From positions 124,001 through 188,000 of the forward strand of contig CACYYM010000005.1 of the NCBI GenBank assembly GCA_902778625.1: DNA of 64,000 nt. Direction: 5' to 3'. The notes beneath the pieces are model-generated. The model had not been told where the DNA came from and did not search any database. It saw nothing but the letters and a program-made list of their open reading frames with translations. Each line of letters begins with the position of its first letter. The first letter of the stretch is position 1. Of the stretch, positions 1,437 to 62,123 are shown one piece after another. The position numbers and the translations under genes are program-made. The stretch is from an uncultured Bacteroidales bacterium (GTDB taxonomy: Bacteria; Bacteroidota; Bacteroidia; Bacteroidales; Bacteroidaceae).

Positions 1437-1526
1437 AAAAACGCCGCACGCGGGGATTGCAATTTCCGCGTGCGGCGTTGGTCATTTCCGCGTGCGGCGT
1501 TTGCAATCCCCGCACGCGGCGTTTAG
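1437..1526. repeat. 22-bp dyad array, 4 GC-rich units
   Basis: Four CCGC-RY-GCGG cores start at 1444, 1466, 1488 and 1510, exactly 22 bp apart. The central dinucleotide reads AC, GT, GT, AC, so the array is symmetric end to end. Midway between cores, 11 bp from each, lies a second dyad (TTGCAA at 1457-1462). The array fills the gap between two convergent genes, 46 bp after the PBP stop and 13 bp before the stop of the leftward gene. Confidence 0.9.
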
Positions 1527-1538
1527 AATTTTCCTTTG

Positions 1539-5457: not shown

Positions 5458-6657
5458 ATGGAGAAGCAAGTGAGTTTACCGGAGGAGTTTGTTCAGTTGA
5501 TGTGCGAACATTATGATGAGGCAACGGCTGATGCGCTCTTGGAGGCTTTGACGATGACCGAACCGGAAGTGTCCGTTCGCCTCAATCCCCGCAAATTCTC
5601 TGCCCAGGAGCTGCTCGCCTTTCGTCCTGACCTTGAGCGAGTTCCGTGGTGCCCCAATGCGTTCTACCTCCAGGGAAGGCCTGCTTTCACCTTCGACCCC
5701 TTGCTTCATGCCGGAGCCTATTACGTGCAAGAGGCTTCGTCGATGTTTGTGGCGGAGGTCTTGAAGCAGTTTGTGCCTCTCGACAAGCCTTTGGTTGCGC
5801 TCGATCTCTGTGCCGCTCCAGGTGGAAAAAGCACGCTTCTGCAAAGTCTTTTGCCGGATGGGTCGCTCCTTGTCAGCAACGAGCCGGTTGCCAAGCGAGC
5901 CCAAGTACTGGCGGAGAACATGCAGAAGTGGATGACGGGACAGCCCGAGACGGCTCCGACGAGCATTGTGACGCAGAATTATCCCTCGGACTTCGGGGCT
6001 CTCACAAATAGCGTGGATGTCCTCCTGACAGACGTTCCCTGTTCAGGCGAAGGGATGTTTCGCAAGGATGAGGACGCCAGAAAAGAGTGGAGCCTTGACA
6101 ATGTCTGGATGTGTCAGCAGCGACAACGGGACATCCTGCACGACATCTGGCACGTTCTCAAACCCGGTGGCCTGCTCATCTACAGTACTTGCACTTTCAA
6201 TCGCTATGAGGACGAAGACAATGTACGTTATTTTTGCGATGAAATGGGCGCTTTTTGCATCTTCGAGCGACATTTTCTGCCTGGTCGCGACCGCGGTGAA
6301 GGCTTCTATATTGCAGCTTTGAGAAAGGAAGATTCCCTCCCTGCTTACCCTCCAGGGGAGTGCCAAGATGCTATTGCTAAAGCGCGACGGACCCTTCGAC
6401 TGCTCTTCGACTCGGCCAATACTCCAGAGCCCGAAGGTCCTCGCATTGAGTTGAGTTATAGTGAAGCCCTGCAATACCTGCGTCGTGAAGCCCTTCGGGT
6501 AGAGGCTCCTCGCGGGCCAGTCACGCTTTGCTATCGTGGCTTGGTGCTCGGTCCGGGCAAAGGCGTCGGCTCTCGCATCAATAATCTCTACTCGGAGCAA
6601 TGGCGCATCCGAACCACTTATACAAAGCCTTTCTCCCTGCTCGGCATTGGGAATTGA
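5458..6657 (+). CDS. rsmF: 16S rRNA m5C methyltransferase, RsmF/NOL1-NOP2-Sun family
   Basis: A 399-residue SAM-dependent methyltransferase that makes 5-methylcytosine in rRNA, by family most likely 16S. Motif I, DLCAAPGGKST (116-126), binds SAM. The two cysteines of the mechanism are in PCSGEGM (194-200) and in the STCTFNRYEDEDNV segment (Cys 245). The C-terminal 130 residues resemble the PUA-like tail of RsmF. I chose the ATG at 5458 because the promoter ends at 5438; the in-frame ATG at 5446 would be nearly leaderless, and a TTG at 5428 lies inside the promoter. The gene is alone, between a divergent oxidoreductase and a long 22-bp array. Confidence 0.9.
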   Translation: MEKQVSLPEEFVQLMCEHYDEATADALLEALTMTEPEVSVRLNPRKFSAQELLAFRPDLERVPWCPNAFYLQGRPAFTFDPLLHAGAYYVQEASSMFVAEVLKQFVPLDKPLVALDLCAAPGGKSTLLQSLLPDGSLLVSNEPVAKRAQVLAENMQKWMTGQPETAPTSIVTQNYPSDFGALTNSVDVLLTDVPCSGEGMFRKDEDARKEWSLDNVWMCQQRQRDILHDIWHVLKPGGLLIYSTCTFNRYEDEDNVRYFCDEMGAFCIFERHFLPGRDRGEGFYIAALRKEDSLPAYPPGECQDAIAKARRTLRLLFDSANTPEPEGPRIELSYSEALQYLRREALRVEAPRGPVTLCYRGLVLGPGKGVGSRINNLYSEQWRIRTTYTKPFSLLGIGN

Positions 6658-6666
6658 CGCTTTTCC

Positions 6667-6824
6667 CGTGGTGTGTTGCCAAACTCAGCGTGCCGTGTTG
6701 CCAAACTCGGCGTGCCGTGTTGCCAAACTCAGCGTGCCGTGTTCGTTATAGATACATGTATGTATAATTAAATGTACATGTATGTATAATTGTAGATACA
6801 TGTATCTATAACGAACTTAACGTG
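6667..6824. repeat. 22-bp dyad array, 8 units of mixed flavour, with 74-bp palindrome
   Basis: Cores of the form C(G/A)TG begin at 6667, 6689, 6711, 6733, 6755, 6777, 6799 and 6821, every step exactly 22 bp. The first four are CGTG units with CCAAACTC spacers; the next three are CATG cores in ATACATGTAT context; the last is CGTG followed by CGGCGTTTTG. The CATG part is a 74-bp near-perfect palindrome (6742-6815) bounded by TTCGTTATA and its reverse complement. A second copy lies at 15448-15521. The array starts 10 bp after the rsmF stop. The rest of this 389-base gap (6825-6983) shows nothing recognisable before the next promoter. Confidence 0.92.
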
Positions 6825-6983
6825 CGGCGTTTTGAAAGCCCTCGTGTCGAAACAAGTAATGTCACGTTTTGAAGCACCTCCGCCCTTGCTTCGTGAAACG
6901 GCTCCAAGCGTGTGGTAATTGGCCTTGTGCAGGGGCGACTGAAGTTGTTTCTCCATGTTTAAGCACATTTTTTTCTCGCTTTC

Positions 6984-7046: not shown

Positions 7047-8111
7047 ATGGAAGTACACGATCATTTGGTAATCATGGCAGGCGGCATTGGAAGTCGCTTC
7101 TGGCCGATGAGTACACTCGAGAAACCTAAGCAGTTCGTCGATGTCCTAGGTTGTGGAAGGACACTTATTCAACTGACCGCAGACCGCTTCAAACCGCTCA
7201 TTTCAGTAGAAAACATGTGGGTTGTAACGTCGGCAAAGTACGTCAACGTTGTTCGCGGGCAACTGCCCGAGATACCTTGGAACCATATCCTTTTGGAGCC
7301 TTGCCGCAGGAACACAGCTCCCTGCATTGCCTATGCCAGTTGGCGCATCAAGTCGCAAGACCCGAAGGCGAATATCGTGGTCACTCCAAGCGACGCCATT
7401 GTGATGGATACTGCTGAGTATCAGCGTGTCATCAAGTCGTGTCTGAAGTTCGTGGCAGAGAGCGATGCGATGGTTACACTTGGCATGAAGCCCACACGAC
7501 CCGAGACGGGTTACGGCTACATACAGGCCGACCTTTCCTATTCGACAGCCCGCAACAAGGAAATCTTCCGTGTGGATTCCTTCAGGGAAAAGCCCGACAT
7601 CGATACTGCGAAGCGTTACATACAGAAGAACAATTTTTTCTGGAACTCTGGCATCTTCATCTGGAACGTCGGCACGATTGCCAATGCCCTTCGTGTTTAC
7701 CAGCCAACTCTCTCGAAGATCTTCGAGGACTTGCTTCCCATATACGGCACAGAAAAGGAGCAAGACGCGATAAACAAGGTCTTCCCAGAGTGCGAAAACA
7801 TATCCATCGACTATGCCATCATGGAGAAGGCCGAGGAGATTTATGTCTTCCCTGCAAGCTTCGGCTGGAGCGACCTTGGCACTTGGGGCTCACTTCTCGA
7901 GAACTCGGAGCGCGACATCCACGGCAACTCGCTTATCGGAGAGAACATCGATGTCTATGAGACCACGAACTGTATCGTTCACGCCACGCAGGAAAAGCGA
8001 GTCGTCGTGCAGGGCCTCGACGGCTTCATCGTTGCAGAATGCGACAATACATTACTTATATGTCGCCTCTCAGACGAACAACGCATCAAGCAATTCAGCG
8101 AAAGCAAGTAA
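7047..8111 (+). CDS. manC: Mannose-1-phosphate guanylyltransferase
   Basis: The 354-residue enzyme makes GDP-mannose from mannose-1-phosphate and GTP in the cytoplasm. The nucleotide-binding signature is near the N terminus ([14 protein letters not shown], then EKPKQF); the product-binding region includes NFFWNSGIF and later GWSDLGTW. Only the guanylyltransferase domain is present; the fused isomerase domain of longer ManC proteins is absent, as is common in Bacteroidetes. It is the first gene of a tight operon with gmd (1-base gap) and fcl, so its GDP-mannose is probably meant for GDP-L-fucose, the donor for fucosylated surface glycans and glycoproteins in this phylum. Confidence 0.95.
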
Positions 8112-8112
8112 T

Positions 8113-9222
8113 ATGAGCAATAAGATAGCGCTAATAACGGGCGTTACAGGACAGGACGGCTCGTACCTGAGCGAGTTTCTTCTCGAGAAAGGTTACGAGG
8201 TGCACGGCATTATCCGTCGCTCCTCTGTTGACTTCCGTGAACGTATCGCCCATCTGGAAGGACAACCACACTTCCATCTGCATTACGCCGACATGGGCGA
8301 CTCGATGTCCCTCGTCAAGCTTGTCGGTTTAGTACAACCTACTGAGATATATAACCTGGCTGCCCAAAGTCACGTACAGGTCAGCTTCGACGCGCCAGAA
8401 TTCACGGCCGATGTGGATGCCGTGGGCGTGCTTCGTGTCCTAGAAGCCGTGCGAACCAATCATCTGGAGAATACTTGCAAAGTCTATCAGGCATCTACTT
8501 CCGAACTTTATGGCAAGGTGGAAGAAGTCCCGCAGAACGAGAACACGCCCTTCCATCCCTATAGCCCTTACGCCGTTGCCAAGCTTTATGGCTTCTGGAT
8601 CGTCAAGGAATATCGTGAAGCGTACGGCATGTTCTGCTGCTCTGGCATTCTCTTCAACCACGAGAGCGAGCGCAGAGGCGAGACTTTCGTGACCCGTAAG
8701 ATTACCCTTGCCGCAGCTCGTATCGCCCAAGGCAAGCAAGAGAAACTCTTCTTGGGGAACCTCGACAGCCTTCGCGACTGGGGCTATGCCAAGGATTATG
8801 TGGAGTGCATGTGGCTCATCCTGCAGCACGAAACGCCTGAAGACTTTGTAATTGCCACAGGTGTGCAGCACTCGGTTCGCGAGTTCACAGACCTCGCCTT
8901 CCGTCACGTCGGCATAGAGTTGAAGTTCGAAGGCAAAGGCATCAACGAGAAAGGCATTTGCGTGAAAGGTCCTGAGCAACTGATCGGCAAGACGTTGGTC
9001 GAGGTGAGCGAAGACTTCTATCGTCCCACCGACGTCGTCAACCTTTGGGGTGACCCGACGAAGGCAAAGGCAAAGCTCGGTTGGAACCCTAACAAGACCA
9101 CTTTCGAGCAGTTAGTAAAGCTCATGGTGGAGCACGATATGGCCAAGGTCGCTGCCGAAGGTGCTGCAGCTAAAGTAAGGACAAACCTCGCAGAATACCT
9201 CGAGAAGGGCGTAGTAAAATAA
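8113..9222 (+). CDS. gmd: GDP-mannose 4,6-dehydratase
   Basis: A 369-residue short-chain dehydrogenase/reductase that converts GDP-mannose to GDP-4-keto-6-deoxymannose with bound NADP. The cofactor loop is GVTGQDG (10-16); the catalytic STSELYGKV segment supplies the Thr/Glu pair, and YAVAK the Tyr/Lys pair. The ATG at 8113, one base after the manC stop, fits the family N terminus ([13 protein letters not shown]). The frame is open upstream through manC, but that part has no counterpart in Gmd. Its stop overlaps the fcl start (TAATG), suggesting translational coupling. Confidence 0.96.
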
Positions 9223-10163
9223 TGGAAAAGAGTTCAAAGATTTATGTCGCAGGCCACAGAGGCATGGTCGGCTCTGCTATAGTCAGGGAGCTGCAGCGGC
9301 AGGGATACACCAATATCATAACACGAACGCATAAGGAACTCGACTTGACCAGGCAAGATGCCGTCGAGAAGTTCTTTGCCGAAGAGAAGCCCGAGTACGT
9401 CTTCCTCGCCGCAGCTAAGGTGGGAGGCATCGTAGCCAACCAAAGTGCTTTGGCAGACTTCATGTACGACAACATGATACTTGAGATGAACGTCATTCAT
9501 GCTGCTTGGCAGAACGGGTGCAAGAAGCTGGAATTCCTTGGGAGTTCCTGCATCTATCCGCGTATGGCGCCGCAGCCCATGACGGAAAGCTGCTTGCTGA
9601 CTGGCGAGTTGGAGAAGACAAATGAAGCGTATGCCTTGGCGAAGATTAGCGGCCTCAAGTATTGCGAGTTCCTGAACCGCCAGTACGGCACCGACTACAT
9701 CAGCGTGATGCCAACGAACTTGTATGGCCCTAATGACAACTATCATCCCGAGCATAGCCACGTTTTGCCGGCATTGATACGCCGTTTCCACGAAGCAAAG
9801 GTAGCAGGACTTGAATCCGTTACCTGTTGGGGCGATGGTAGTCCGCTCCGAGAGTTCCTTTACGTGGATGACTTGGCGAACCTCTGTGTCTTCCTGATGA
9901 ACAACTACTCGGGCAATGAAACCGTTAATGCAGGAACAGGTAAAGAGCTAACCATTAAGGCACTCACAGAGTTGGTGGCAAAGGTCATCGGCTACAAGGG
10001 CAGGATAGAGTGGGACACCACCCGTCCGAACGGTACACCGCGCAAACTGCTCGACGTAAGCAAAGCCGCAGCACTCGGATGGACTTATAAAACTGAGCTG
10101 GAAGATGGCATTCGCCTAAGCTATGAAGACTTCCTGAATAATCCGATGCGTGCAGAAAGATAA
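9222..10163 (+). CDS. fcl: GDP-L-fucose synthase
   Basis: A 313-residue bifunctional epimerase/reductase, the last step to GDP-L-fucose. The N-terminal Rossmann motif is GHRGMVGSAIV. The SSCIYPRMAPQPM segment holds the catalytic Ser/Cys region, and YALAKISG gives the YxxxK pair. It overlaps the gmd stop by one base. A GH10 xylanase follows after 30 bp and may share the transcript, though its function is unrelated. Confidence 0.95.
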   Translation: MEKSSKIYVAGHRGMVGSAIVRELQRQGYTNIITRTHKELDLTRQDAVEKFFAEEKPEYVFLAAAKVGGIVANQSALADFMYDNMILEMNVIHAAWQNGCKKLEFLGSSCIYPRMAPQPMTESCLLTGELEKTNEAYALAKISGLKYCEFLNRQYGTDYISVMPTNLYGPNDNYHPEHSHVLPALIRRFHEAKVAGLESVTCWGDGSPLREFLYVDDLANLCVFLMNNYSGNETVNAGTGKELTIKALTELVAKVIGYKGRIEWDTTRPNGTPRKLLDVSKAAALGWTYKTELEDGIRLSYEDFLNNPMRAER

Positions 10164-11836: not shown

Positions 11837-11849
11837 CAGCGCAAATGGT

Positions 11850-12032
11850 GATATCCGAGGACCTCGTAACCCCGTTTGGGGAAGTGAGGGACGAGGGTAG
11901 AGAGGGAATCCGGTGCAAGGCCGGAGCAGTGCCCGCTACTGTATTTGCCTTATTGGTGCAGCGCACACAACGTCACTGGGACAGCTTCCTGGGAAGACGC
12001 GCTGCCGGGCAAGAGCCAGGAAACCTGCCGTT
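11850..12032 (+). promoter_or_regulatory. Cobalamin (adenosylcobalamin-class) riboswitch
   Basis: The conserved aptamer core is readable: GGGAATCCGGTGCAAGGCC then GGAGCAGTGCCCGCTACTG (11905-11941), the CACTGGG arm (11973-11979), GGGAAGACGCG (11990-12000), and the B12 box AGCCAGGAAACCTGCCG (12014-12030). The order and wording match the family closely. It sits between a promoter and a BtuB-type receptor gene, so bound cobalamin should shut down expression. The first 55 bases contain an extra hairpin (CGAGGACCTCG and CCCCGTTTGGGG). Confidence 0.96.
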
Positions 12033-12083
12033 TCGCAAGAACATAACATGTGTCCTCGGGACAAGGGCGACGTAATAATAATG

Positions 12084-12182: not shown

Positions 12183-14156
12183 ATGCTTAATATAATAAGG
12201 AATTACTATCTGCAAGCGATTCTGGCTATCGTATTGGCATTTGCTGTGAAAGCAGGTGCCAATGCGCAGAGTCCAACAGACAGCATAAAACAGTTAAATG
12301 AGGTGACAATCACGTCGAAGCTGCCGGTTCGCACTATTGCGACGTCTCAGACACTTAGCGGTGCTGACCTGCAAGCCTTGAGTACCACGTCGGTTGCTGA
12401 TGCCTTGAAGTACTTTTCGGGCGTACAGATAAAGGATTACGGCGGGCTTGGAGGCTTGAAGACCATCAACGTCCGTTCGCTCGGTGCACAGCATGTGGGC
12501 GTTTACGTCGATGGTATTCGGCTGACGAATGCGCAGAACGGAACCGTCGACCTTGGCAAGTTCTCCCTTTCCTCAATGGAAAGTGTGTCGCTCTACAACG
12601 CCAACAAGCTCGACTACTGCCAGTCGGCAAGCGAATATGCTTCGGGTGCGACGGTATACTTACAGACTAAACGGCCTACGAACGACTCGTTGTCTGTTCA
12701 GCTTCGCAACGCTTCCTTCTATACTTGGATGGCAAAGGTGAACGGACAGTTCAATTGGAAAGGCTGGCAAGGCTTTGTTGATGGCGAGTATTGCTCAAGT
12801 CGAGGTGACTATCCCTTCCGTTACCATTCCGAATATGAAGACACCGTAGGGCGTCGCGCGAACAGTGACATCCGCTACGGTCGCGTTGAGGCTGCGCTGT
12901 TTCGAGGTGGCTTCTCTTCACACATTTACTATTACGACAGCGAGCGCGGCTGCCCGGGAGGTATCGTCCGGCGTTTGTCGGACAAGTACACGAATGTAGG
13001 CAGGGAGTGGGACCGCGATTTCTTTGTGCAGGCAAGCTATCAGGAACAGTTCCTCAAATGGTTCCGCTTCAAGGCGAACGCCAAGTACACCAACGAATAT
13101 CTGCGTTACAACACAAAGTATCCGGAGAATCAGAACACCGCTCGCGTCGATAATCATTATCGCCAGCAAGACGCTTACGGAGCCCTTTGCGCTGCCTTTA
13201 TGCCTTGGAGCTGGCTGTCGCTCTCGACGAGTTATGATGCCAGATATAGTATCATGAAAGCCGACCTGAAGCGTTTCGAAGACGTAAAACGAGTGGATCA
13301 AAAGCTTGTGTTTGCCGCTCAAGCGAGCTGGAAAGGCATACAGGCTGCGGCGTCGGCATTGCATCAAAGGTATAGCGACTGGACTTTTGTGCAGGCAGGT
13401 GCAGCAGAGCCTATCGACAGATGGACGCCTGCGGTGTCGCTCGCCTACACCTTCTACGGCATAACAGTGCGCTGGTGGTACAAGGAAATCTTCCGCGTGC
13501 CGACCCTCAACGACCTCTATTACACGCAGGTAGGCAACAGAAGCCTCAAGCCGGAAGACACCAAGCAACTCAATCTCGGCTTGGAATACCATTGGAACAA
13601 GAAGGCGTGGGCTATCGATGCGCAAGCCGACATCTATCGAAACAAGATAGACAACCGCATAGTCTGCCTGCCGCTAAAGGGTACGTACACCTGGTCGATG
13701 ATGAATTACGGCAAAACCTTCTGCCGAGGATTGAACGCGACACTCAAGGGACACTACAATGCGAAGCAGTGGCACGCTTCGCTGCTCTCGTCGATTACGT
13801 GGCAGAAGGACGTCGACCGCACCGACCCGACTGACGAAGACATGTATAATAAAGCGATATGTTACTCGCCGACCTTCTCGACAGGCCTCACTGCAATAGC
13901 AGGTTGGCGGGCACTTCAGTTCACGACGTCGTACCTTTATGTTGGCGAAAGAATGTGGAGCAAAGCAGACCCCGAGGACATTCTCGAGCCGTACCACAAC
14001 ATCGACATGAAGCTCTCTTATACCCACAACATAAAGAAGACATCGATTGGCCTTTGCATGGAGGTCTGCGACGTGCTCGACATACAGTACGAACACATTC
14101 CGCGCTACCCGATGCCCGGTCGTAACTATAAACTCACGCTATCTTTCGGAATATGA
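12183..14156 (+). CDS. btuB: TonB-dependent outer-membrane cobalamin receptor
   Basis: A 657-residue TonB-dependent receptor that carries corrinoids across the outer membrane. Signal peptide about 1-28 (ends GANAQ), TonB-box-like LNEVTIT (38-44), plug domain to about 160 (NVRSLGAQHVGVYVDGI), then a 22-strand barrel ending in LTLSFGI with the usual C-terminal aromatic. The function is set by the cobalamin riboswitch directly upstream. I chose the ATG at 12183 because a signal peptide follows at once; an in-frame ATG at 12081 would add 34 charged residues. The stop overlaps the BtuG-like gene by 4 bp. No btuCDF is in the window. Confidence 0.93.
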   Translation: MLNIIRNYYLQAILAIVLAFAVKAGANAQSPTDSIKQLNEVTITSKLPVRTIATSQTLSGADLQALSTTSVADALKYFSGVQIKDYGGLGGLKTINVRSLGAQHVGVYVDGIRLTNAQNGTVDLGKFSLSSMESVSLYNANKLDYCQSASEYASGATVYLQTKRPTNDSLSVQLRNASFYTWMAKVNGQFNWKGWQGFVDGEYCSSRGDYPFRYHSEYEDTVGRRANSDIRYGRVEAALFRGGFSSHIYYYDSERGCPGGIVRRLSDKYTNVGREWDRDFFVQASYQEQFLKWFRFKANAKYTNEYLRYNTKYPENQNTARVDNHYRQQDAYGALCAAFMPWSWLSLSTSYDARYSIMKADLKRFEDVKRVDQKLVFAAQASWKGIQAAASALHQRYSDWTFVQAGAAEPIDRWTPAVSLAYTFYGITVRWWYKEIFRVPTLNDLYYTQVGNRSLKPEDTKQLNLGLEYHWNKKAWAIDAQADIYRNKIDNRIVCLPLKGTYTWSMMNYGKTFCRGLNATLKGHYNAKQWHASLLSSITWQKDVDRTDPTDEDMYNKAICYSPTFSTGLTAIAGWRALQFTTSYLYVGERMWSKADPEDILEPYHNIDMKLSYTHNIKKTSIGLCMEVCDVLDIQYEHIPRYPMPGRNYKLTLSFGI

Positions 14157-15445
14157 AACGACTCTTTACAATCCTCTGCTTTACATTATATATATATAAC
14201 GCGTGCGCGCAAGAGCGGATTATTCTCCTCAACGAAGGCATGTGGCAAGCAGACAACGGCAAGATCTCCTACTTTGAGGGCGGCTCGATTATCAGCAATC
14301 AGTGGTTCCGCGACAAGAACGGCTACAAGATTGGCGACACGCCGAACGACATCATACAGGTCAACGAAAACCTCATCGCCATCGCCGTCAACTGGTCGAA
14401 CATTGTGCAGTTCATCCGACCTGACGGCACTGCAGTTGCTGCCACAGAGGACATTCCCAACAATCGCAGGCTATGCAGTGACGGCTCATACGTCTATGTG
14501 ACGAGCTACGGACACGAGTGCGAGACCATCTACGGCACAGTATATTTCGACAGAGGCTTCGTCGCGAAGATAGACCTGAGCAGTTTCAAGGTCGTTGCCA
14601 CCTGCGAGGTCGGCTACGAACCTGAGGGCATAGCGCTCTACGACGGACGCCTCTTTATCGCCAACACCGGCGGATATGCTGAACAGGAGGGCGATCACGA
14701 GTTCGAGACGACAGTGAGCGTCGTCAATGCCGCCACGATGACTTTGGAGAAGAACATCGACACGGGCATTCCCAACCTGTTTGGCGAGATGTCGCAGAGC
14801 GGGCGATACCTGTGCATCAACTCGCCTGGAGACTACTACGAGGTGCCCCCTTGTGGCCTAATCTTCGATTGCAAGAGGGCGCTGCAGGGCGAGCCGTGCT
14901 TCGTCGTCTTCAATTATCCTGCCACTTACAGCACGAAGACTCGCGACGGACACTTCCTCGCAATCGGTTCCGCATTCAGCTACATCACCGGAGAATACAC
15001 GTTCTCTTACCTCACCATCGAGCCTTGGACGTTCATCCGGACAGGTGGTACGAGCGGACTCAGCATGTCGCTACCAGGTAATATGCTCGCCGACATCATG
15101 AACATGGCACAGCCTTATGGCATTTACGTCAATCCATACTCGGGCTACATCTACGGCACCGACGCCGGTTCCTTCGAGGGAGCAGGCTATCTCTACCAGT
15201 GGTCGCCCGAAGGTCAACTGCTTGGCACACACAAAGTTTACATTAATCCCGGGCACTTCCTCGCTTTGCCGCCATACGATTGGGCAAGTGGCATCGAAAC
15301 AAATCACAAATCACAAATCACAATAAAAAATGACGTTTACGACCTTCAAGGACGTCGAATCGACAACCTCCACCAAAGGAAAAAGGGAACTATATACGTC
15401 GAGAATGGCAAGAAGACACTCTGCAATACTCAACCCCGCAAGTGA
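14153..15445 (+). CDS. btuG: BtuG-like beta-propeller surface protein
   Basis: A 430-residue secreted protein of the YncE/DUF5074 propeller type. BtuG of gut Bacteroides is a seven-bladed propeller that binds vitamin B12 extremely tightly and sits on BtuB; coupling to btuB (4-bp overlap) under a cobalamin riboswitch makes that role likely. Seen here: signal peptide (1-19), repeated propeller segments (GYEPEGIALYDGRLFIANTG; YGIYVNPYSGYIYGTDAGS), and a C-terminal tail (NDVYDLQGRRI...YVENGKK) of the sorting-signal type common in Prevotella. The only early cysteine (NACAQ, residue 18) is a poor lipobox, so lipidation is uncertain; BtuG itself is a lipoprotein. Confidence 0.82.
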   Translation: MKRLFTILCFTLYIYNACAQERIILLNEGMWQADNGKISYFEGGSIISNQWFRDKNGYKIGDTPNDIIQVNENLIAIAVNWSNIVQFIRPDGTAVAATEDIPNNRRLCSDGSYVYVTSYGHECETIYGTVYFDRGFVAKIDLSSFKVVATCEVGYEPEGIALYDGRLFIANTGGYAEQEGDHEFETTVSVVNAATMTLEKNIDTGIPNLFGEMSQSGRYLCINSPGDYYEVPPCGLIFDCKRALQGEPCFVVFNYPATYSTKTRDGHFLAIGSAFSYITGEYTFSYLTIEPWTFIRTGGTSGLSMSLPGNMLADIMNMAQPYGIYVNPYSGYIYGTDAGSFEGAGYLYQWSPEGQLLGTHKVYINPGHFLALPPYDWASGIETNHKSQITIKNDVYDLQGRRIDNLHQRKKGTIYVENGKKTLCNTQPRK

Positions 15446-15447
15446 GG

Positions 15448-15552
15448 TTCGTTATACATACATGTATCTATAATTATACATACATGTACATTTAATTATA
15501 GATACATGTATGTATAACGAACTCAACACGCCAAGTTGAGCAACACGGCACG
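15448..15552. repeat. 22-bp dyad array, 5 units, AT-rich palindrome plus CACG units
   Basis: CATG cores at 15461, 15483 and 15505, then CACG cores at 15527 and 15549, all 22 bp apart. The first three form a 74-bp palindrome (15448-15521) that is about 70/74 identical to the reverse complement of the one at 6742-6815. It starts 3 bp after the btuG stop. The remaining 77 bases to the next gene show no clear promoter. Confidence 0.9.
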
Positions 15553-15629: not shown

Positions 15630-18600
15630 ATGAAGAAGTATTTACTGAGCATTCTCGGGCTGACAATGTTGGCCACGAGTAATGTCTTTGCCACCGAAGT
15701 GACGGTGACAATGAATGCGAAAAGCAAGCTGATTCAGTCGTTGGTCAACATTGCGACCAGCGAAAGCGTGAGTGTGGGCGAGCCCACCAGCAACAAGTAC
15801 ACCTTCGAGGCTGCCGACGGCTCCTACCTGCTGACAGCCACGGCAGGCGACGGCGAAACGGTGAGCGGCACCATCCAGCTCGACATCGATGCCGACCACA
15901 CCGCCTTCACCATCTATTCCCCCGAGGTGCGTGTGAAGAACACAGATTGGGTCTATGGCACCGACTACAGTCTGAACCTCCTGGTTACCACGAAGGAAGG
16001 CCAGACGGTGAACACTACGATGGGTGAGTACACCAGCGGCAACAAGATGTTCCTCGTCTTCGACGGCAACACCTACTACCTCGACCTGGTTCCCTCCGAA
16101 GCCCGTCAGGCAGAAGGTTACCTGCCGGTAAGCTACACAGGCACCGTCAACTTCAACAACACCATACAGGCCGAGGCTCCGATGGGCTACGCATACAGCG
16201 TCACGGTGCCTGCTGGAGCCACCTGCTTCATTGGCACCAAGTCGGCTCACTTCGTGAAGTTCAAGGAGGTAGCGCCTGAAAGCATCACCGACGGCGGCAC
16301 GGTCTATAACTACATCCTTGCTGACAAACAGCAGTACAACTACCGTGTTATGCAGGAAGGCAAGCTGACGCAAGCCGGCATCTTCACCATGAGCGGCGAC
16401 GAGACAAAGCGTCCCGTGCTCGCCTTCACCGATGCCGACATGGAGGCGCGAAGCCCCAAGGCCATCGATCACGACGTGACCTCCAACGGCGGCTACAACG
16501 TGGGCGACCTCTTCCTCAACATCAACCCCGCCGGCTTCCTGCAACTCAGCAGCGTGGGCGACACGTACGACATCCTGCCGATGCGCAACTGGGAGCTCAC
16601 CAACAGCACTACTGCCAACTACTTCATCGAGCCGGACTTCCACTTCACCGTCGTTAACCTCAACGGCGAGACGGATGAGAGCGTCGTGAAGGTCGAGAAT
16701 GAACTGCTGACGGCAGTGGGCGAGGGCACGGCCATCGTGCTTGTCACCTACGACGGCATCCACTTGGATTACTACAACAATAGCGCCACCTCGAGCAGCT
16801 TCGCAGGTGGCAACGACTGGGGCGCCATCTGGCCCGAGAACACCGGAGCGTTCGTCGTAACTGTCGGACAGCAGGCCACGGGCATCGTCCCCAACATGAC
16901 CATCAACAAGGAATACCTCAGCACCGTGACGCCTTGGGGTGGCGGCGACCCCATCGACACCAAGCTCTCGATGGAGAATGTCGATGCCGAGTTCGACGTG
17001 CTCTATTACCTCGACACGGAGGACGGCTTCAGCTACACCTTCACACCCGAAGGCGTCAGCTCTGTCACGCTGGCCCGCCCCGTCATCGGCGAGACGATGG
17101 CCTCCTACACAGGCTTCTCCTCTGAAGGCGTCACCGATAACGGCGACGGCAGCTACACGCTCCTCCTCACCGAGGGCCGCAATATCGTCTGCCTCACCAA
17201 TGCGGAGGGCAAGAGCGTCTATCAGGTGATGACCGCCAAGCCCTGCCATCGCGACATCAAGGTCGGCGACGAGGTGGTGGAGATTGTAAAGCCTGGCGAC
17301 GCCGTGACCGTGCAGTACTCGGGCCTCTATCATCCTGCAGGCAAGCTGGCAGGCATACACAACTTCCAGGGATTCCTTGATTACAAGAAGCCTGCCGAAG
17401 GCGTAAGCGTGACGAAAGGCAGGGGCAACCAGTACACGATGGCTGCCAATGCAGCGCCGCAGGCCGTGACTTTCACGGTGCCCGACGACTGGTCGGCAAA
17501 GACGATAGAACTCGCCGACGGCGTGATGTGCATCAGTGGCTTCGGTGACCCCATCGGCAACCACCGCGCCACATCTAAGACGACAGGCCGCGCTCCCAAC
17601 TTCACCGCCATTCAGCAGAACGCAGTCTTCGGCCGCGTGCCTACTGTGAAAGTGGCTGTCGATGTGCCTTCCATCCCGCCCGCTGTCGCTACGTTCGAGG
17701 ACGTGACTGACGTCACAGAGCCCGTTGACGGCCATATGAGCGTCGGCACTGAGGAGGACGACGACCGCGAGTTCTTCGTCAGCGGCGACTACGCCTTTGC
17801 AAGCGGCTGCATGCACGACTGGGACTACTGGTACTGGTTCGGCTATGCCAACCGCGCCGACAACAGCTACGCTACGCTCGACGACCAGTGGAACAACATC
17901 GTGGGTGGTGGCTACGACGGCTCCGCAACCTATGGCGTTGCCTTCGCTGCCGAGTTCAACGGCCCCTGCTACGTGACGCTGCTCACCGAGCCTGCCGTCG
18001 TTCCCGGCTTCTACATCACAAACAGCAGCTACGCCTACGACTCGATGACGAATGGCGACGGCAGCGCCAAGAAGTTCGCGAAGGGCGACTGGTTCAAACT
18101 CACCATCACGGGTTATGATGCCGACGACAATGAGACCGGCTCGAAGGAGTATTACCTGGCCGATTTCCGCGATGAGGCTAAAGCCTTCATCATCAATGAC
18201 TGGCGCTACGTTGACCTTTCGTGCCTCGGCCAGGTTGCCAAGCTCGGCTTTGCTCTGAGCAGCAGCGACAACGGCGCCTACGGTATGAACACGCCCGCCT
18301 ACTTCTGCTTCGACAACTTCGGTGCTGAAGGCACGGAGGTTCTGCCCGAAAAGAACGTCGCTTTGCCTCTCGAGGTTGCTACCTTCGAAGAGCTTGAAGT
18401 GCCTGCCGACGGCCATATGAGCGTCAGCACCGAAGAGGACGACGACCGCACGGAATTCGTCAGCGGCGACTTCGAGTTTGCTACCGGCTGCATGCACGAC
18501 TGGGACTACTGGTATTGGTTTGGTTATGCCAACCGCGTCGACACTAAGTATGAGACTCTCGACGACCAGTGGAACAACGTCGTGGGTGGTGGCTACGACG

Positions 18601-19574
18601 GCTCCGCAACCTATGGCGTTGCCTTTGCTGCCGAGTTCAACGGCCCCTGCTACGTGATGCTGCTCTCCGAGCCTGCCGTCGTTCCCGGCTTCTACATCAC
18701 AAACAGCAGCTACGCCTACGACTCTATGACGAACGGCGACGGCAGTGCCAAGAAGTTCGCGAAGGGCGACTGGTTCAAGCTCACCATCACGGGTTATGAT
18801 GCCGACGACAATGAGACCGGCTCGAAGGAGTATTACCTGGCCGACCTCCGCGATGAGGCTAAAGCCTTCATCATCAATGACTGGCGCTACGTCGACCTTT
18901 CTTGCCTCGGCCAGGTTGCCAAGCTCGGCTTCGCTCTGAGCAGCAGCGACAACGGCGCCTACGGTATGAACACGCCCGCCTACTTCTGCTTCGACAACTT
19001 CGGTGCTGAAGGCACGGAGGTTCTGCCCGAAGGCAACGTGCTCCTCGTCTCTTCGATAGGCTATGCTACTTATGTGGCTCCGAAGGATGTGGGCTTCTCC
19101 GAGGCAGAGGTTGAAGCATATGCTGTAACAGAGTCAACTGTGGAGGGTTATGTGCACTTGACACCTGTCACTGAGGTTCCTGCAGGCGAGGCTATTCTCG
19201 TGAAGGCTGCTGAAGGTGCTTACGTTATTCCTGCTGCCCAAACGACTCCTGCTGCTCTGGAAGGCAACCTGCTGAAGCCTGCAGTGGAGGATGTGACTGC
19301 CGATGGTACTCAGTACATCCTTGCAGAAGGCACTGAAGGTATTGCTTTCTATCAAGCTACATCAGGAACAACTATTGCTGCCGGCAAGGGTTATCTCGAG
19401 ATAGATGGTTCTGCTGTTAAGGCATTCCTCTTCGACGACGGCAATGCAACTGGCATCGACGATGTTAACCAAAACACCAACCTCAATGCACCCATTTACA
19501 ACGTTGCAGGTCAGCGCTTGCAGAAGATGCAGAGAGGTATCAACATTATTGGTAACAAGAAAATACTCAAATAA
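15630..19574 (+). CDS. Large surface protein with two DUF4465 domains (BtuH-like, B12 locus)
   Basis: A 1314-residue secreted protein: signal peptide (1-21), a long beta-rich N-terminal region of unknown fold (about 25-690, with a PEST-like DUF4430-type stretch not excluded), two DUF4465 domains (about 701-910 and 928-1137), and a C-terminal region ending IYNVAGQRLQKMQRG, a cell-surface sorting-type tail. DUF4465 proteins recur in BtuB operons of Bacteroidetes, and as I recall the B12-binding BtuH proteins are of this kind. I therefore infer corrinoid capture at the cell surface. The two domains are nearly identical in DNA and protein (681-bp period, no indel). The gene follows btuG by 184 bp containing a 22-bp array and is followed at once by a small peptide gene. 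Confidence 0.8.
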   Translation: MKKYLLSILGLTMLATSNVFATEVTVTMNAKSKLIQSLVNIATSESVSVGEPTSNKYTFEAADGSYLLTATAGDGETVSGTIQLDIDADHTAFTIYSPEVRVKNTDWVYGTDYSLNLLVTTKEGQTVNTTMGEYTSGNKMFLVFDGNTYYLDLVPSEARQAEGYLPVSYTGTVNFNNTIQAEAPMGYAYSVTVPAGATCFIGTKSAHFVKFKEVAPESITDGGTVYNYILADKQQYNYRVMQEGKLTQAGIFTMSGDETKRPVLAFTDADMEARSPKAIDHDVTSNGGYNVGDLFLNINPAGFLQLSSVGDTYDILPMRNWELTNSTTANYFIEPDFHFTVVNLNGETDESVVKVENELLTAVGEGTAIVLVTYDGIHLDYYNNSATSSSFAGGNDWGAIWPENTGAFVVTVGQQATGIVPNMTINKEYLSTVTPWGGGDPIDTKLSMENVDAEFDVLYYLDTEDGFSYTFTPEGVSSVTLARPVIGETMASYTGFSSEGVTDNGDGSYTLLLTEGRNIVCLTNAEGKSVYQVMTAKPCHRDIKVGDEVVEIVKPGDAVTVQYSGLYHPAGKLAGIHNFQGFLDYKKPAEGVSVTKGRGNQYTMAANAAPQAVTFTVPDDWSAKTIELADGVMCISGFGDPIGNHRATSKTTGRAPNFTAIQQNAVFGRVPTVKVAVDVPSIPPAVATFEDVTDVTEPVDGHMSVGTEEDDDREFFVSGDYAFASGCMHDWDYWYWFGYANRADNSYATLDDQWNNIVGGGYDGSATYGVAFAAEFNGPCYVTLLTEPAVVPGFYITNSSYAYDSMTNGDGSAKKFAKGDWFKLTITGYDADDNETGSKEYYLADFRDEAKAFIINDWRYVDLSCLGQVAKLGFALSSSDNGAYGMNTPAYFCFDNFGAEGTEVLPEKNVALPLEVATFEELEVPADGHMSVSTEEDDDRTEFVSGDFEFATGCMHDWDYWYWFGYANRVDTKYETLDDQWNNVVGGGYDGSATYGVAFAAEFNGPCYVMLLSEPAVVPGFYITNSSYAYDSMTNGDGSAKKFAKGDWFKLTITGYDADDNETGSKEYYLADLRDEAKAFIINDWRYVDLSCLGQVAKLGFALSSSDNGAYGMNTPAYFCFDNFGAEGTEVLPEGNVLLVSSIGYATYVAPKDVGFSEAEVEAYAVTESTVEGYVHLTPVTEVPAGEAILVKAAEGAYVIPAAQTTPAALEGNLLKPAVEDVTADGTQYILAEGTEGIAFYQATSGTTIAAGKGYLEIDGSAVKAFLFDDGNATGIDDVNQNTNLNAPIYNVAGQRLQKMQRGINIIGNKKILK
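17730..19038 (+). repeat. Tandem in-frame duplication of the DUF4465 domain
   Basis: Copies at 17730-18357 and 18411-19038 keep a constant offset of 681 bp (227 codons) throughout. The first third differs at scattered positions; the last 480 bp or so are almost identical even at third codon positions, which suggests recent duplication or gene conversion. Confidence 0.9.
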
Positions 19575-27061: not shown

Positions 27062-27152
27062 AAAAAAAACGCCGCGTGCGGCGATTGCAATCCCCGCGTG
27101 CGGCGTTGCTGGTTTCCGCGTGCGGCGTTTGCGATCCCCGCGTGCGGCGTTT
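27062..27152. repeat. 22-bp dyad array, 4 GC-rich units, with leftward terminator
   Basis: CCGCGTGCGG cores at 27072, 27094, 27116 and 27138, exactly 22 bp apart, with GATTGCAATC, TTGCTGG and TTTGCGATC spacers. The array begins 4 bp past the stop of the leftward oxidoreductase. Read leftward, the last unit is CGCCG-CACG-CGGCG followed by eight Ts (27083-27062), a usable intrinsic terminator. Confidence 0.92.
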
Positions 27153-34417: not shown

Positions 34418-34602
34418 TGTGGTGTGTCGGCAAACTCGGCGTGCTAAGTTGTCAAACTCAACGTGTTAAAATGGTCAACTTAACGTGCTGAAAAAATTTT
34501 TTAGCGTGGTGCAATTTCAAACGCCGCCTGCGGAGATGTAAAACGCCGCGTGCGGCGATGGCAATCCCCGCGTGCGGAAATGGCAATCCCCGCGTGCGGC
34601 GT
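34418..34602. repeat. 22-bp dyad array, 8-9 units, CGTG/CAAACT units running into GC-rich units
   Basis: Cores at 34440, 34462 and 34484 (CGTG), 34505 (CGTG, one base short), then 34527 (CCTG), 34549, 34571 and 34593 (CGTG of CCGCGTGCGG). A weaker TGTG lies at 34418. The CAAACT-type and GC-rich families thus share one uninterrupted 22-bp phase. The array fills most of the 378-base gap between two leftward genes and ends 5 bp before the stop of the transglycosylase gene. The rest of the gap holds the promoter and inverted repeat listed above. Confidence 0.92.
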
Positions 34603-42207: not shown

Positions 42208-42387
42208 CCTGCCAAATTGCCAACTTTACCTTGCAAAAATGCCCCATTTCACCGCAGAAAATGACTTTTTTCACCTGAGAAAATCGCAATTTTCACGTGT
42301 TAAGTTTGCAAACTTCACGTGTTAACTTTACAAACTCGACGTGTCGAGTTGCCAAACACACCCTGTTAAGTCCCCCAATTCGATCTG
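42208..42387. repeat. 22-bp dyad array, about 9 units, in a divergent gap
   Basis: Cores at 42208 (CCTG), 42230 (CTTG), 42252 (CCGC), 42274 (CCTG), 42296, 42318 and 42340 (CGTG), 42362 (CCTG) and 42384 (TCTG), all 22 bp apart. The best units are 42296-42345: TTAAGTTTGCAAACTT is a near-palindrome centred exactly 11 bp after a CGTG core, and CTCGAC-GT-GTCGAG has 6-bp arms. The outer units are decayed. This is the only array not next to a gene end; it lies in the 697-base gap between the divergent ntpD and flippase genes. The rest of the gap (41916-42207) shows no gene or clear signal. Confidence 0.85.
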
Positions 42388-48850: not shown

Positions 48851-48952
48851 AAAAACGCCGCGTAGGGAGATTTCAAACGCCGCGTGCGGCGATGACCATT
48901 TCCGCGTGCGGGGATTGCAATCTCCGCACGCGGCGTTTTTTACCCCCCTGCG
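48851..48952. repeat. 22-bp dyad array, 4 GC-rich units
   Basis: Cores at 48858 (degenerate CCGCGTAGGG), 48880, 48902 and 48924, exactly 22 bp apart; a looser CCCC-CTGC-GGGG hairpin follows near 48945. The outer ends pair with each other (AAAAAACGCCGCGT and ACGCGGCGTTTTTT), so the transcript could fold into one long hairpin ending in Ts. It fills the gap between two convergent genes. Confidence 0.92.
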
Positions 48953-51140: not shown

Positions 51141-54002
51141 TTGAAGGCAAGGTTATTATTGATACTGACAGCATGCTACGTTCTGGCATCTTTGGCAGCG
51201 CGTCCTACAGGAAGAATGGTCTTCTGGGCGGTCGGTGCCGACTCGTTGCATGTTGACTCGCTTCGTGCAGACAGTTTGCCCGATTCGCTTCGGACAGACA
51301 GCTTGCCCGACTCGGCCAGGGTGCAGCCCTTGCCCTTGCAAGCATATACCATCATGCCCGATAGTGTGCCGCCGGACACTGTACCTGTCGATACGACGCC
51401 CAAGAGCAAGAATGCCCTCGACCTGCCTGTCAACTATTCCGCTGAGGACTCAATCACCTTCGACTACGTCAACTCCCGTGCCAACCTGTATGGAGGTGGC
51501 AAGGTGCAGTACCAGAATCTGGAACTCGAAGCCGATATCATAAACATTGCTATCGACAGCAGCCTTGTCCATGCGACAGGTCGTGCGGACTCGACAGGCG
51601 TTGTCAAAGGCAAGCCTCTCTTCAGGCAAGGTACCGACGAGTACGAACCCGACAGCATCAGCTATAATTTCCGTAGCCGTAAGGCCTTCATTTCGAACGT
51701 CTATACCCAGCAAGGCGAGGGCTATATGAAGAGTATGGACGGCAAGCGCGACAGCACGGGCACGATGTATGTGAAGAAAGCTTTCTACTCGACCTGCGAT
51801 GCTGAACATCCCCACTTCTACTTGAACATGACGCGAGCCAAGATGCGTCCGGGCAAGGACGTAGTGTTCGGTCCGACCTATCTCGTTGTCGAGGATGTTC
51901 CGTTGCCGCTGGCTATTCCGTACGGTTTCTTCCCCTTCAAGGACAAGTACAGCAGCGGTTTCATCATGCCAAGCTATGGCGACGAGACAACGCGAGGCTT
52001 CTATTTGCGTGAGGGCGGCTACTACTTCGCTTTCAACGACTATGTCGACGCAAAGGTCTTGGCCGATATCTACACGAAGGGTTCCTGGCAGCTCTCGGCG
52101 CAATCCACCTACAAAAAACGCTATAAATTCAGCGGCAACCTCTTCATCAGCTATCAGTATACACAGACAGGCGAGAAGAACATGCCGGACTTTACCGTCT
52201 CGAAGGACTTCAGAATTGCATGGACACACAGGCAAGACCCAAAGTCCAATCCTACACAATCGTTCTCGGCAAGCGTCAACTTCGCCACGAGCAGCTACGA
52301 GCGCAACAACCTTGTCAGCATGTACAATCCGGCGAGCTACACCCAAAGCACTCGAACCAGCAGCCTCTCTTACAGCAAGTCGTTCCCCGATTTAGGCCTG
52401 ACGATAGGCACCACATTCAACCTTTCGCAGCAAGTTCGCGACAGCAGTATCTCCGTCACTCTCCCCAACCTAACCATCCAGCTCAACCGCTTTTATCCCT
52501 TCAAGCGCAAGAAGATGGCAGGCAAGGAGCGGTGGTATGAGAAGATTGGCATGAGCTATTCGGGCTCGCTCACAAACAGCATCAACACCAAAGAGAACTT
52601 GCTGTTCAAGAGCAGCCTTGTGAAGGACTGGCGCAATGGTATGAGGCATCAGCTCCCTATCAGCGCCACATTCCCAATCTTTAAGTACATAAACATAACG
52701 CCGAACTTTACCTTCACCGACCGCATGTACACGAAGAAAGTCATGCAGTCGTGGGACGAAGACAACGGGAAGGTGCTGCGCGACACCATCAACGGCTTCT
52801 ACAACGTTTATAACTTTGCGTTGGGTCTTACAGCCAACACCAAGTTCTATGGTTTTATTACGCCAAAGCCTTGGTTCGGCGGAAAGAAGATAAAGATGAT
52901 ACGTCACATGGTAACGCCTACCATCAACTTCAACTTTGCGCCCGACTTCAGCAAGCCCATGTGGGGCTTCTACGACACGTATGTCCGCACAGACAAGGAT
53001 GGCAACGTCTCAACCGTCAGCTATTCGCCCTTCTCGGACGGCGTGTATGGCACTGCGCCCAACGTTATGGCGGGAAGTGTGCAGTTCGACCTCTCGAACA
53101 ATCTTGAAATGAAGTGGAGAACGGATCGCGACACGACGGGGACTGGCGAGAAGAAAATCAGCCTAATCGACGAGCTGGGAGCCTCAATGAGCTACAATAT
53201 GGCTGCGAAGAGGAAACCCTGGAGCGACCTCAACATGCACATCCGACTCAAACTCACAAAGACCTACACCTTCTCTATGAATGCGGTCTTCGCCACCTAT
53301 GCTTACGAGTTCGATAAGAACGGCAATGTCTTTGTCAGCGACCACACCGAGTACGGCAAAGGTCGCTTCGGACGCTTCCAAGGCATGACGCAGAACCTCC
53401 ACTACACCTTCAACAACCAAACCTTCAAGAAGCTTCTGGGCATGCGGGACAAGTTCCGGGGGCGCTTCACTAGCAGCTCTTACGATGACGACGAAGAAGA
53501 TGACGAGTACGACGACGAGGAGGACGAGGTTGACCCGACGATGCAGAACGTTGACCCAGACCGAGCCAAGGGCGAGCGAGGAGCCAAGAAGACAGAAAAG
53601 AGCGACGTTGACGAAGACGGTTATCTCAAGTTCCAAATGCCGTGGAGCTTTACCGTCAGCTATGGCATCTCGATGCGTGAGAACACCAGTGCACAAATCA
53701 ATCCCAAGCGAATGCGCTATCCCTACATGTTCACCCAGACCCTCAACTTCTCGGGCAACGTCCGCCTTGCCGAGGGTTGGAACATCAATTTCTCGTCGGG
53801 CTACGACTTCAACTACAAGAAGATGTCGATGACCACCATGTCCCTCTCGCGCGACCTCCACTGCTTCTCCATGTCGCTCAGCATGGTCATCAGTCCATAC
53901 ACCAGCTTCAACTTCCTATTTGCCGCCAAAGCAGGCACGCTTGCAGATGCCCTCAGGTGGAAAAAACAGAGCTCCTACAGCAGCAATGTTGAGTGGTATT
54001 GA
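51141..54002 (+). CDS. lptD: LPS-assembly protein LptD (OstA-like)
   Basis: A 953-residue outer-membrane protein that inserts lipopolysaccharide into the outer leaflet. Signal peptide (1-20), a Ser/Asp/Leu repeat linker (DSLxxDSLPDSLRTDSLPDS, about 34-57), an OstA/LptA-like jelly roll (about 95-240) and a large barrel to the C-terminal Tyr. The start is TTG: no ATG in this frame precedes the signal peptide, and the promoter ends 23 bp upstream. An acidic loop (YDDDEEDDEYDDEEDEVD, near 780) is unusual and probably a periplasmic or surface turn. The gene ends in a 22-bp array converging on engB. Confidence 0.9.
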   Translation: MKARLLLILTACYVLASLAARPTGRMVFWAVGADSLHVDSLRADSLPDSLRTDSLPDSARVQPLPLQAYTIMPDSVPPDTVPVDTTPKSKNALDLPVNYSAEDSITFDYVNSRANLYGGGKVQYQNLELEADIINIAIDSSLVHATGRADSTGVVKGKPLFRQGTDEYEPDSISYNFRSRKAFISNVYTQQGEGYMKSMDGKRDSTGTMYVKKAFYSTCDAEHPHFYLNMTRAKMRPGKDVVFGPTYLVVEDVPLPLAIPYGFFPFKDKYSSGFIMPSYGDETTRGFYLREGGYYFAFNDYVDAKVLADIYTKGSWQLSAQSTYKKRYKFSGNLFISYQYTQTGEKNMPDFTVSKDFRIAWTHRQDPKSNPTQSFSASVNFATSSYERNNLVSMYNPASYTQSTRTSSLSYSKSFPDLGLTIGTTFNLSQQVRDSSISVTLPNLTIQLNRFYPFKRKKMAGKERWYEKIGMSYSGSLTNSINTKENLLFKSSLVKDWRNGMRHQLPISATFPIFKYINITPNFTFTDRMYTKKVMQSWDEDNGKVLRDTINGFYNVYNFALGLTANTKFYGFITPKPWFGGKKIKMIRHMVTPTINFNFAPDFSKPMWGFYDTYVRTDKDGNVSTVSYSPFSDGVYGTAPNVMAGSVQFDLSNNLEMKWRTDRDTTGTGEKKISLIDELGASMSYNMAAKRKPWSDLNMHIRLKLTKTYTFSMNAVFATYAYEFDKNGNVFVSDHTEYGKGRFGRFQGMTQNLHYTFNNQTFKKLLGMRDKFRGRFTSSSYDDDEEDDEYDDEEDEVDPTMQNVDPDRAKGERGAKKTEKSDVDEDGYLKFQMPWSFTVSYGISMRENTSAQINPKRMRYPYMFTQTLNFSGNVRLAEGWNINFSSGYDFNYKKMSMTTMSLSRDLHCFSMSLSMVISPYTSFNFLFAAKAGTLADALRWKKQSSYSSNVEWY

Positions 54003-54029
54003 TTATCAGCCCGTTAGCAAATGTTAAAA

Positions 54030-54113
54030 TCCCCGCGTGCGGCGATGGCAATCCCCGCGTGCGGCGTTTGCAATTTCCGCGTGCGGCGTTTGCAATCTCC
54101 GCGTGCGGCGTTT
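54030..54113. repeat. 22-bp dyad array, 4 GC-rich units
   Basis: CCGCGTGCGG cores at 54033, 54055, 54077 and 54099, exactly 22 bp apart, all in the GT orientation. It starts 28 bp after the lptD stop and ends 28 bp before the stop of the leftward engB gene. Confidence 0.93.
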
Positions 54114-54140
54114 GGATTTCCTGTCTTCCGAAAGGGGGAA

Positions 54141-58055: not shown

Positions 58056-58141
58056 AAATCTCCGCACGCGGCGATGGCAATCTCCGCACGCGGCGATGGC
58101 AATCCCCGCACGCGGCGTTTCAATCCCCGCACGCGGCGTTT
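58056..58141. repeat. 22-bp dyad array, 4 GC-rich units
   Basis: CCGCACGCGG cores at 58062, 58084, 58106 and 58127 (steps 22, 22, 21), all in the AC orientation. It lies between yidC and the S9 peptidase gene in the same direction, so it could attenuate transcription between them; no promoter is visible after it. Confidence 0.92.
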
Positions 58142-62031: not shown

Positions 62032-62123
62032 CACGTTAAGATGCCAAACTTAACGTGCCATCTTTGCAAACTTAACGTGTTAAATTGACCAACTTAACGT
62101 GCCGAGTTGAGAGACTCGGCACG
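62032..62123. repeat. 22-bp dyad array, 5 units of TTAACGTG type
   Basis: CACG at 62032, CGTG at 62054, 62076 and 62098, CACG at 62120: exactly 22 bp apart. Spacers contain CCAAACTTAA or CAAACTTAA, with TTAAC-GT-GTTAA a clean dyad. A weak first unit may lie at 62010. It starts about 60 bp after the MFS stop. The rest of the 294-base gap up to 62267 holds the terminator and promoter listed here. Confidence 0.9.

Follow-up and report, generated by a model that had tools for sequence, protein, structure and literature searches.

Modular intergenic arrays of 22-bp dyad repeats in an uncultured Bacteroidales genus: a retained register with changing arm sequences

Plasmid iterons are tandem protein sites with a spacing of about two helical turns. 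Among dispersed chromosomal repeats of the Bacteroidales, the BrickBuilt element of Porphyromonas gingivalis, a MITE/minisatellite, features a 23-nt unit and 19 copies in strain ATCC 33277 (PMC4596501). Families of REP elements with a GTAG tag are linked to RAYT transposase genes (PMC3733652). It is usually the sequence that defines intergenic palindromic repeats, while the conserved trait of the arrays presented here is their geometry; a description of 22-bp-phased, interchangeable dyad arrays was not found in a literature search that extended to few subscription journals.

The window, i.e., the whole stretch of 64,000 nt that was analysed, contains arrays of three main flavours, namely an A-type unit AAC-N4-CRYG-N4-GTT with a CGTG/CACG core, a GC flavour with CCGCRYGCGG and a triple-CATG block. 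Two of them meet in the gap between the following two genes:

5458..6657, + strand: upstream gene, 16S rRNA methyltransferase of the RsmF family (Pfam PF01189, PF17125, PF13636)
6658..6745, + strand: four 22-bp units with CGTG cores (6667, 6689, 6711, 6733), A-type flavour CAAACTCRGCGTGCCGTGTTGC, the first unit only half matching
6746..6811, + strand: triple-CATG block with units 6746-6767, 6768-6789 and 6790-6811, GTTCG / CGAAC on its sides
6812..6833, + strand: A-type dyad, in phase, beside the CATG block, CGTG at 6821 and CGGCGTTTT at its end
6834..6855, + strand: degenerate ninth unit, in phase, CGTG at 6843
7047..8111, + strand: downstream gene, nucleotidyl transferase, mannose-1-phosphate guanylyltransferase-like (Pfam PF00483)

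The four CGTG cores from 6667 onward follow each other in exact 22-bp steps, and the CATG cores at 6755, 6777 and 6799 continue this register in the same steps, as do the eighth core at 6821 and a ninth at 6843, where the register stops (6865 is CGTT). The initial annotation, which had listed eight cores in exact 22-bp steps, was thus right about the steps and overlooked the core at 6843. Tandem Repeats Finder (TRF) gave period 22 for both halves of the run (6673-6743 and 6746-6811), and the arms of the units are seldom perfect complements. Throughout the window, runs of CGTG, CATG or CACG in 22-bp steps comprise 9, 5, 5, 4, 4 and 4 cores, plus six runs of 3, compared to a longest 22-step run of 3 in 200 block shuffles; every other step from 19 to 25 gave at most one run of 3. 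The initial observation is thus confirmed, with the correction that the flavours do not have separate origins, as they follow a common 22-bp dyad plan and recur throughout the genome.

Ten intergenic places of the window carry period-22 arrays, and a scan of periods 15 to 39 yielded no array at any period but 22. Besides the run at 6667, these are:

1450..1531, unstranded: GC-flavour array in a convergent gap, period 22; the orthologous gap of relatives has 22-bp arrays of other flavours
15452..15517, - strand: second triple-CATG block of the window, period 22
27072..27152, unstranded: GC-flavour array of four CGTG units, period 22
34431..34599, unstranded: A-type array (34431-34494) and GC-flavour array (34519-34599) in one gap, period 22
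42233..42371, unstranded: degenerate A-type array in a divergent gap, many diverged units, 22-bp register retained
48858..48947, unstranded: GC-flavour array in a convergent gap, period 22
54028..54114, unstranded: GC-flavour array in a convergent gap, period 22
58057..58138, unstranded: GC-flavour array in CACG orientation, period 22
62045..62116, unstranded: A-type array of AACTTAACGTGTTAAGTT flavour, period 22

Repetition of another kind was seen in coding sequences of the window, i.e., two long, nearly identical internal domains (FEDVTDVTEPVDGHMSVGTEEDDDRE... and FEELEVPADGHMSVSTEEDDDRT... copies) in a large secreted-type protein (15630-19574) and a 27-bp direct repeat (51255-51314) within the coding sequence 51216-54002.

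The same period dominates the genome from which the window derives. In 459 kb, 58 period-22 arrays were detected, while no further period up to 60 gave more than six, apart from the double, 44, and period 23 gave none; 859 kb contained 108 period-22 arrays. The detection of arrays is based in part on 22-bp autocorrelation, while the measurement of dyad-to-dyad distances assumes no period and gave intergenic peaks at exactly 11, 22, 33, 44, 55, 66, 77, 88 and 99 bp, with 226 pairs at 22 bp, 20 at 21 bp and 8 at 23 bp (shuffled mean 2). Pairs of dissimilar dyads peak at 22, 44 and 66 bp as well, and thus the different flavours have one common register. Furthermore, the two arms of A-type units covary (z = 5.9, one unit per array).

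With respect to genes, which were called by a home-made procedure (645 genes), as was orthology, all but one or two of the 108 arrays in the 859 kb fall between gene calls. They are dispersed, with 271 gaps of at least 100 bp available. The 60 arrays of codirectional gaps lie at a median of 21 bp from the upstream stop and 162 bp from the next start, the upstream stop being the nearer end for 50 of them. Convergent gaps hold 29 arrays (45 such gaps of at least 100 bp exist) and divergent gaps 17 (66 such gaps).

Comparison with relatives was based on metagenome-assembled genomes (MAGs), the genome of the window being 89% complete. The near relatives are uncultured MAGs from rumen, cecum and other gut samples, called Prevotellaceae, Bacteroidaceae or Bacteroidales bacterium (RUG606, RGIG4467 and others). 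Synteny around the RsmF gene is maintained in about ten species, and in most of these the gap after it carries 22-bp arrays with clearly different units, i.e., CAGTACTCCCACGGGAAAACTC in L098, CAAACTTCACACTAGTAAATCG in L102 and L104, TTTTACCCACGTGATAATTTCA in L101, AACTTAACACGTTAAAATCGCA in L099 and three copies of TTGCTTCTACATGTAAAAGCAA in L106. Likewise, a triple-CATG block occupies the gap that follows the gene 14153-15445 in the genome of the window, in L098 and in L100, with different arms in all three. Of the seven checkable sites at which the species G242 and G035 carry CATG blocks, six are occupied in the genome of the window by 22-bp arrays of a different flavour. Phase and dyad symmetry hence persist at the same chromosomal places while arm sequences turn over. 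This bears out the initial annotation, which had proposed from the run at 6667 that phase and dyads are kept while the arms change; the orthologous gaps gave no picture of flavours inserted independently and in random phase. In another Bacteroidales family, two period-23 arrays with a unit like CTCACAATCTTGTCAATTTTTAT were observed (L145, about 8224-9763), their unit length being that of the P. gingivalis BrickBuilt minisatellite.

The way in which arrays change can be followed in the sister species G012 and G024, whose orthologous proteins are 97% identical (median) and for which about 320 kb entered the statistics. An exact 22-bp unit is inserted in one gap, a 22-bp unit is absent from another, and a third shows a difference of 44 bp. 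In one gap, a unit was swapped in place for another flavour without any indel. According to gene coordinates, the gap after RsmF has a length difference of 88 bp when L104 is compared with L102, and of 44 bp for L098 against L103/L105. In addition, L219 and L163, the latter from the genome of the window, differ by 66 bp (three units) between alignable flanks, both of which lie in one 22-bp column. Turnover thus proceeds by whole 22-bp units. The gain, loss and exchange of units in 22-bp steps which the initial annotation had expected of strain comparisons was observed (22, 22 and 44 bp, and the in-register swap), with species compared instead of strains.

The triple-CATG block is a discrete subtype with nearly always three units, many near-identical copies and species-specific arms. 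The strict three-unit CATG pattern has 39-44 copies in the genome of the window, and all 21 blocks sampled there consist of exactly three units. A pattern free of arm sequence, comprising three TT-N7-CATG-N7-AA units, matched in 35 of the 139 genomes of the genus (0-1 matches for the reversed control), with 44 copies in the genome of the window, 116 in G035, 115 in G020 and 78 in G242. None of 294 further genomes of the order, representing 183 other genera, contained the CATG triple, and the double A-type pattern was missing from 150 other genomes of the family; the patterns searched are thus restricted to the genus. Within each species, one portion of the arms is fixed, whereas 2-4 nt adjoining CATG vary. 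Exact matches between the arms of one unit are rare (2 vs about 35 by permutation, summed over five species; the copies are related, and no formal p-value applies). The outer arms of the block are complementary, with a base identity of 0.72-0.97, and most G242 copies have a third unit that reads as the exact reverse complement of unit one (0.73 and 0.91 of copies, compared to about 0.3 upon permutation). The rarity of exact arm matches together with the inverted outer units indicates that long perfect palindromes are interrupted inside a block with inverted ends.

Around the CATG blocks of the genome of the window, A-type dyads continue in phase and fade outward, their symmetry reaching 5.8 and 5.1 of 8 positions at 22 bp and about 3.2 at 44 bp (chance 2). 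In G242 and G035, the flanking dyads are less pronounced, with about 3 of 8 positions at 22 bp. Similarity between the flanks of different copies fades symmetrically over about 66 bp, and this comparison revealed neither sharp ends nor duplications, which in general argues against a longer mobile element around the block. In G242, the blocks at L216/L217, L221, L211 and L185 were observed to share a right flank of about 100 bp (AGTATCTCAG...CTGAG...TTCTGAGTGCCGGACA); accordingly, this species may possess a longer composite element.

Whether the phase itself is under selection was addressed in 90 aligned gaps of G012 and G024. Substitutions per site amount to 0.086 in arrays and 0.088 elsewhere, and these equal rates point to no clear sequence constraint at this time scale. 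For small indels, the ratio to substitutions is 0.019 within arrays compared to 0.041 outside of them; with p = 0.28 this deficit is not significant and leaves active selection for phase unproven. The array indels measure 1, 1, 8, 22, 22, 24, 25, 35 and 36 bp, of which 24, 25, 35 and 36 bp are not multiples of 22 and are partly alignment splits, as at least the pair of 8 and 36 bp is the 44-bp event which the aligner had divided. The dissimilar dyads that stand in phase suggest direct selection for phase, but do not prove it.

Based on these comparative data, the arrays are tentatively read as genus-restricted, modular REP/MITE-like repeats of 22-bp dyads with whole-unit turnover, which probably serve on the DNA level as a two-turn-phased scaffold for a putative protein; confidence in this preferred reading lies slightly below even. 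Arrays trade, add and drop 22-bp modules, probably by slippage and by unequal or ectopic recombination among hundreds of copies, and one flavour thus takes the place of another at a given chromosomal site. Dimers of the putative DNA-binding protein would then sit on one face of the helix every two turns, just past genes, with an occupancy that may be strongest at the array centre and weaker outward. Candidate roles of such a scaffold are nucleoid organisation, insulation and supercoil handling. As several flavours occur per genome, it would need either a permissive protein or several proteins. The weaker dyads flanking the CATG blocks of G242 and G035 count against the scaffold, as do the equal substitution rates, the insignificant small-indel deficit and the array indels that are not multiples of 22.

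A strong rival, which is quite possible, is the passive inheritance of unit length. Here, the arrays would be tandem or MITE-like repeats whose ancestral unit happened to measure 22 bp, slippage and ectopic recombination would shift whole units, the phase would be inherited without any reader, and arrays would accumulate past stop codons because insertions are tolerated there. The indels and swaps of whole units are in line with it, as are the substitution rate equal to that of other intergenic DNA, the position far from starts and near stops, and the many near-identical copies in species-specific subfamilies. Moreover, since slippage or recombination of whole units in tandem arrays would keep the phase too, the mechanism that corrects geometry or the reader that counts helical turns, both put forward in the initial annotation, is not demonstrated by the register. 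Nevertheless, passive inheritance accounts for the phase but not for the persistence of the dyads, the arm covariation and the count of three: it predicts neither dyad symmetry across different flavours nor covarying arms, free slippage should yield CATG blocks of two, four or five units instead of the fixed three, and dissimilar dyads hold exact distances of 22, 44 and 66 bp. A more far-reaching form of the scaffold, which would span the chromosome and be read by its geometry through one or several putative proteins of fast-evolving specificity, with selection keeping phase, dyad and the CATG count of three while flavours replace each other genome-wide between species, appears rather unlikely.

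A role at the RNA level, with the tandem stem-loops past stop codons acting as (bidirectional) terminators or protectors of 3' ends, is improbable, and a function as RNA hairpins is disfavoured. It draws on the 3'-end placement, i.e., the codirectional arrays nearer to the upstream stop and the frequent occupation of convergent gaps, and on the GC-flavour arrays, which fold strongly and show A- or T-runs at 46% of their edges vs a baseline of 8%. T-runs of at least four occur at 27-46% of the outer array edges, on both strands, vs 8% in other intergenic DNA; this fits a terminator role for some arrays, some GC arrays possibly being bidirectional terminators, and was counted against the scaffold. 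Still, the T-runs show no preference for the sense-downstream edge, the sense strand features no excess of G-U pairs (88 G-U vs 119 A-C mismatches), and the sense RNA of the arrays folds no better than the antisense RNA, the latter even being slightly more stable (p = 0.02; 18 of 26 codirectional GC arrays, p = 0.019). The mismatch counts and the folding comparison speak against selection for RNA hairpins. In addition, CATG units, like many A-type units, have a high AT content and mismatched arms. In L163:19280-19600 and L219, inspection by eye revealed that the gene end is followed first by a conserved GC hairpin with a T-run and then by the 22-bp array, which is therefore located downstream of a probable terminator. 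In the codirectional GC arrays of the genome of the window, T-runs are commoner at the edge toward the upstream gene, and antisense terminators are possible. Rfam covariance models matched no family at the arrays of the window, their sole match being a cobalamin riboswitch at 11847-12046 (RF00174, 79.8 bits), which lies upstream of a TonB-dependent receptor gene (12183-14156).

Finally, that the arrays are REP/BIME elements mobilised by a RAYT (Y1) transposase, and possibly bound by gyrase, is very improbable, as their nature of short dispersed extragenic palindromes with 3'-end clustering and species-specific sequences is opposed by the lack of any match to the Y1_Tnp profile (PF01797) in the 89% complete genome of the window, on which RAYT membership was rejected, and by long, strictly 22-bp-phased arrays vs the mostly single or dimeric GTAG REPs described in PMC3733652.

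The register shared by orthologous gaps with different sequences, and the directly visible gain, loss and replacement of units, make two questions testable, i.e., whether helical phase across dispersed chromosomal sites is read by bacterial proteins, and in what way a family of repeats swaps its sequence at orthologous sites yet retains its layout. The large genus with its 139 genomes from ruminant and gut samples provides plentiful comparative data for both.

Compared to known systems, the arrays share the two-turn spacing of tandem sites with plasmid iterons, but they are scattered over the chromosome in hundreds of gaps and not located beside a replication gene; as an iteron array requires clustering by a replication initiator gene, this dispersal rejects the assignment. 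Intrinsic bidirectional terminators likewise lie between convergent genes, as do GC-flavour arrays with A/T runs at their edges, whereas the arrays consist of several tandem units without sense-strand bias and include many AT-rich members. With REP/BIME elements of the GTAG and CGTC families they have in common the many copies of short extragenic palindromes, mostly 3' of genes, and the species-specific expansion; those elements are mostly singletons or dimers, and the part of PMC3733652 considered reports no fixed 22-bp phase for them, while the arrays are strictly phased and their unit consensus AAC-N4-CRYG-N4-GTT carries no fixed GTAG/CGTC tag upon inspection. A trait of MITEs is present in the complementary outer arms of the CATG blocks, which correspond to terminal inverted repeats. 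BrickBuilt is an intergenic tandem repeat of the Bacteroidales that lacks spacers, ends in small inverted repeats and has many copies and a limited host range (PMC4596501), and the arrays resemble it as intergenic tandem arrays with inverted outer arms in CATG blocks and GC arrays. A unit of 23 nt is not that of the same family, and membership fails on unit length, given the dominance of 22 and the complete lack of period 23 in the 459 kb. In contrast to BrickBuilt, the arrays are built from 22-bp dyadic units, occur in hundreds and comprise several interchangeable flavours, with a register that is conserved across the genus.
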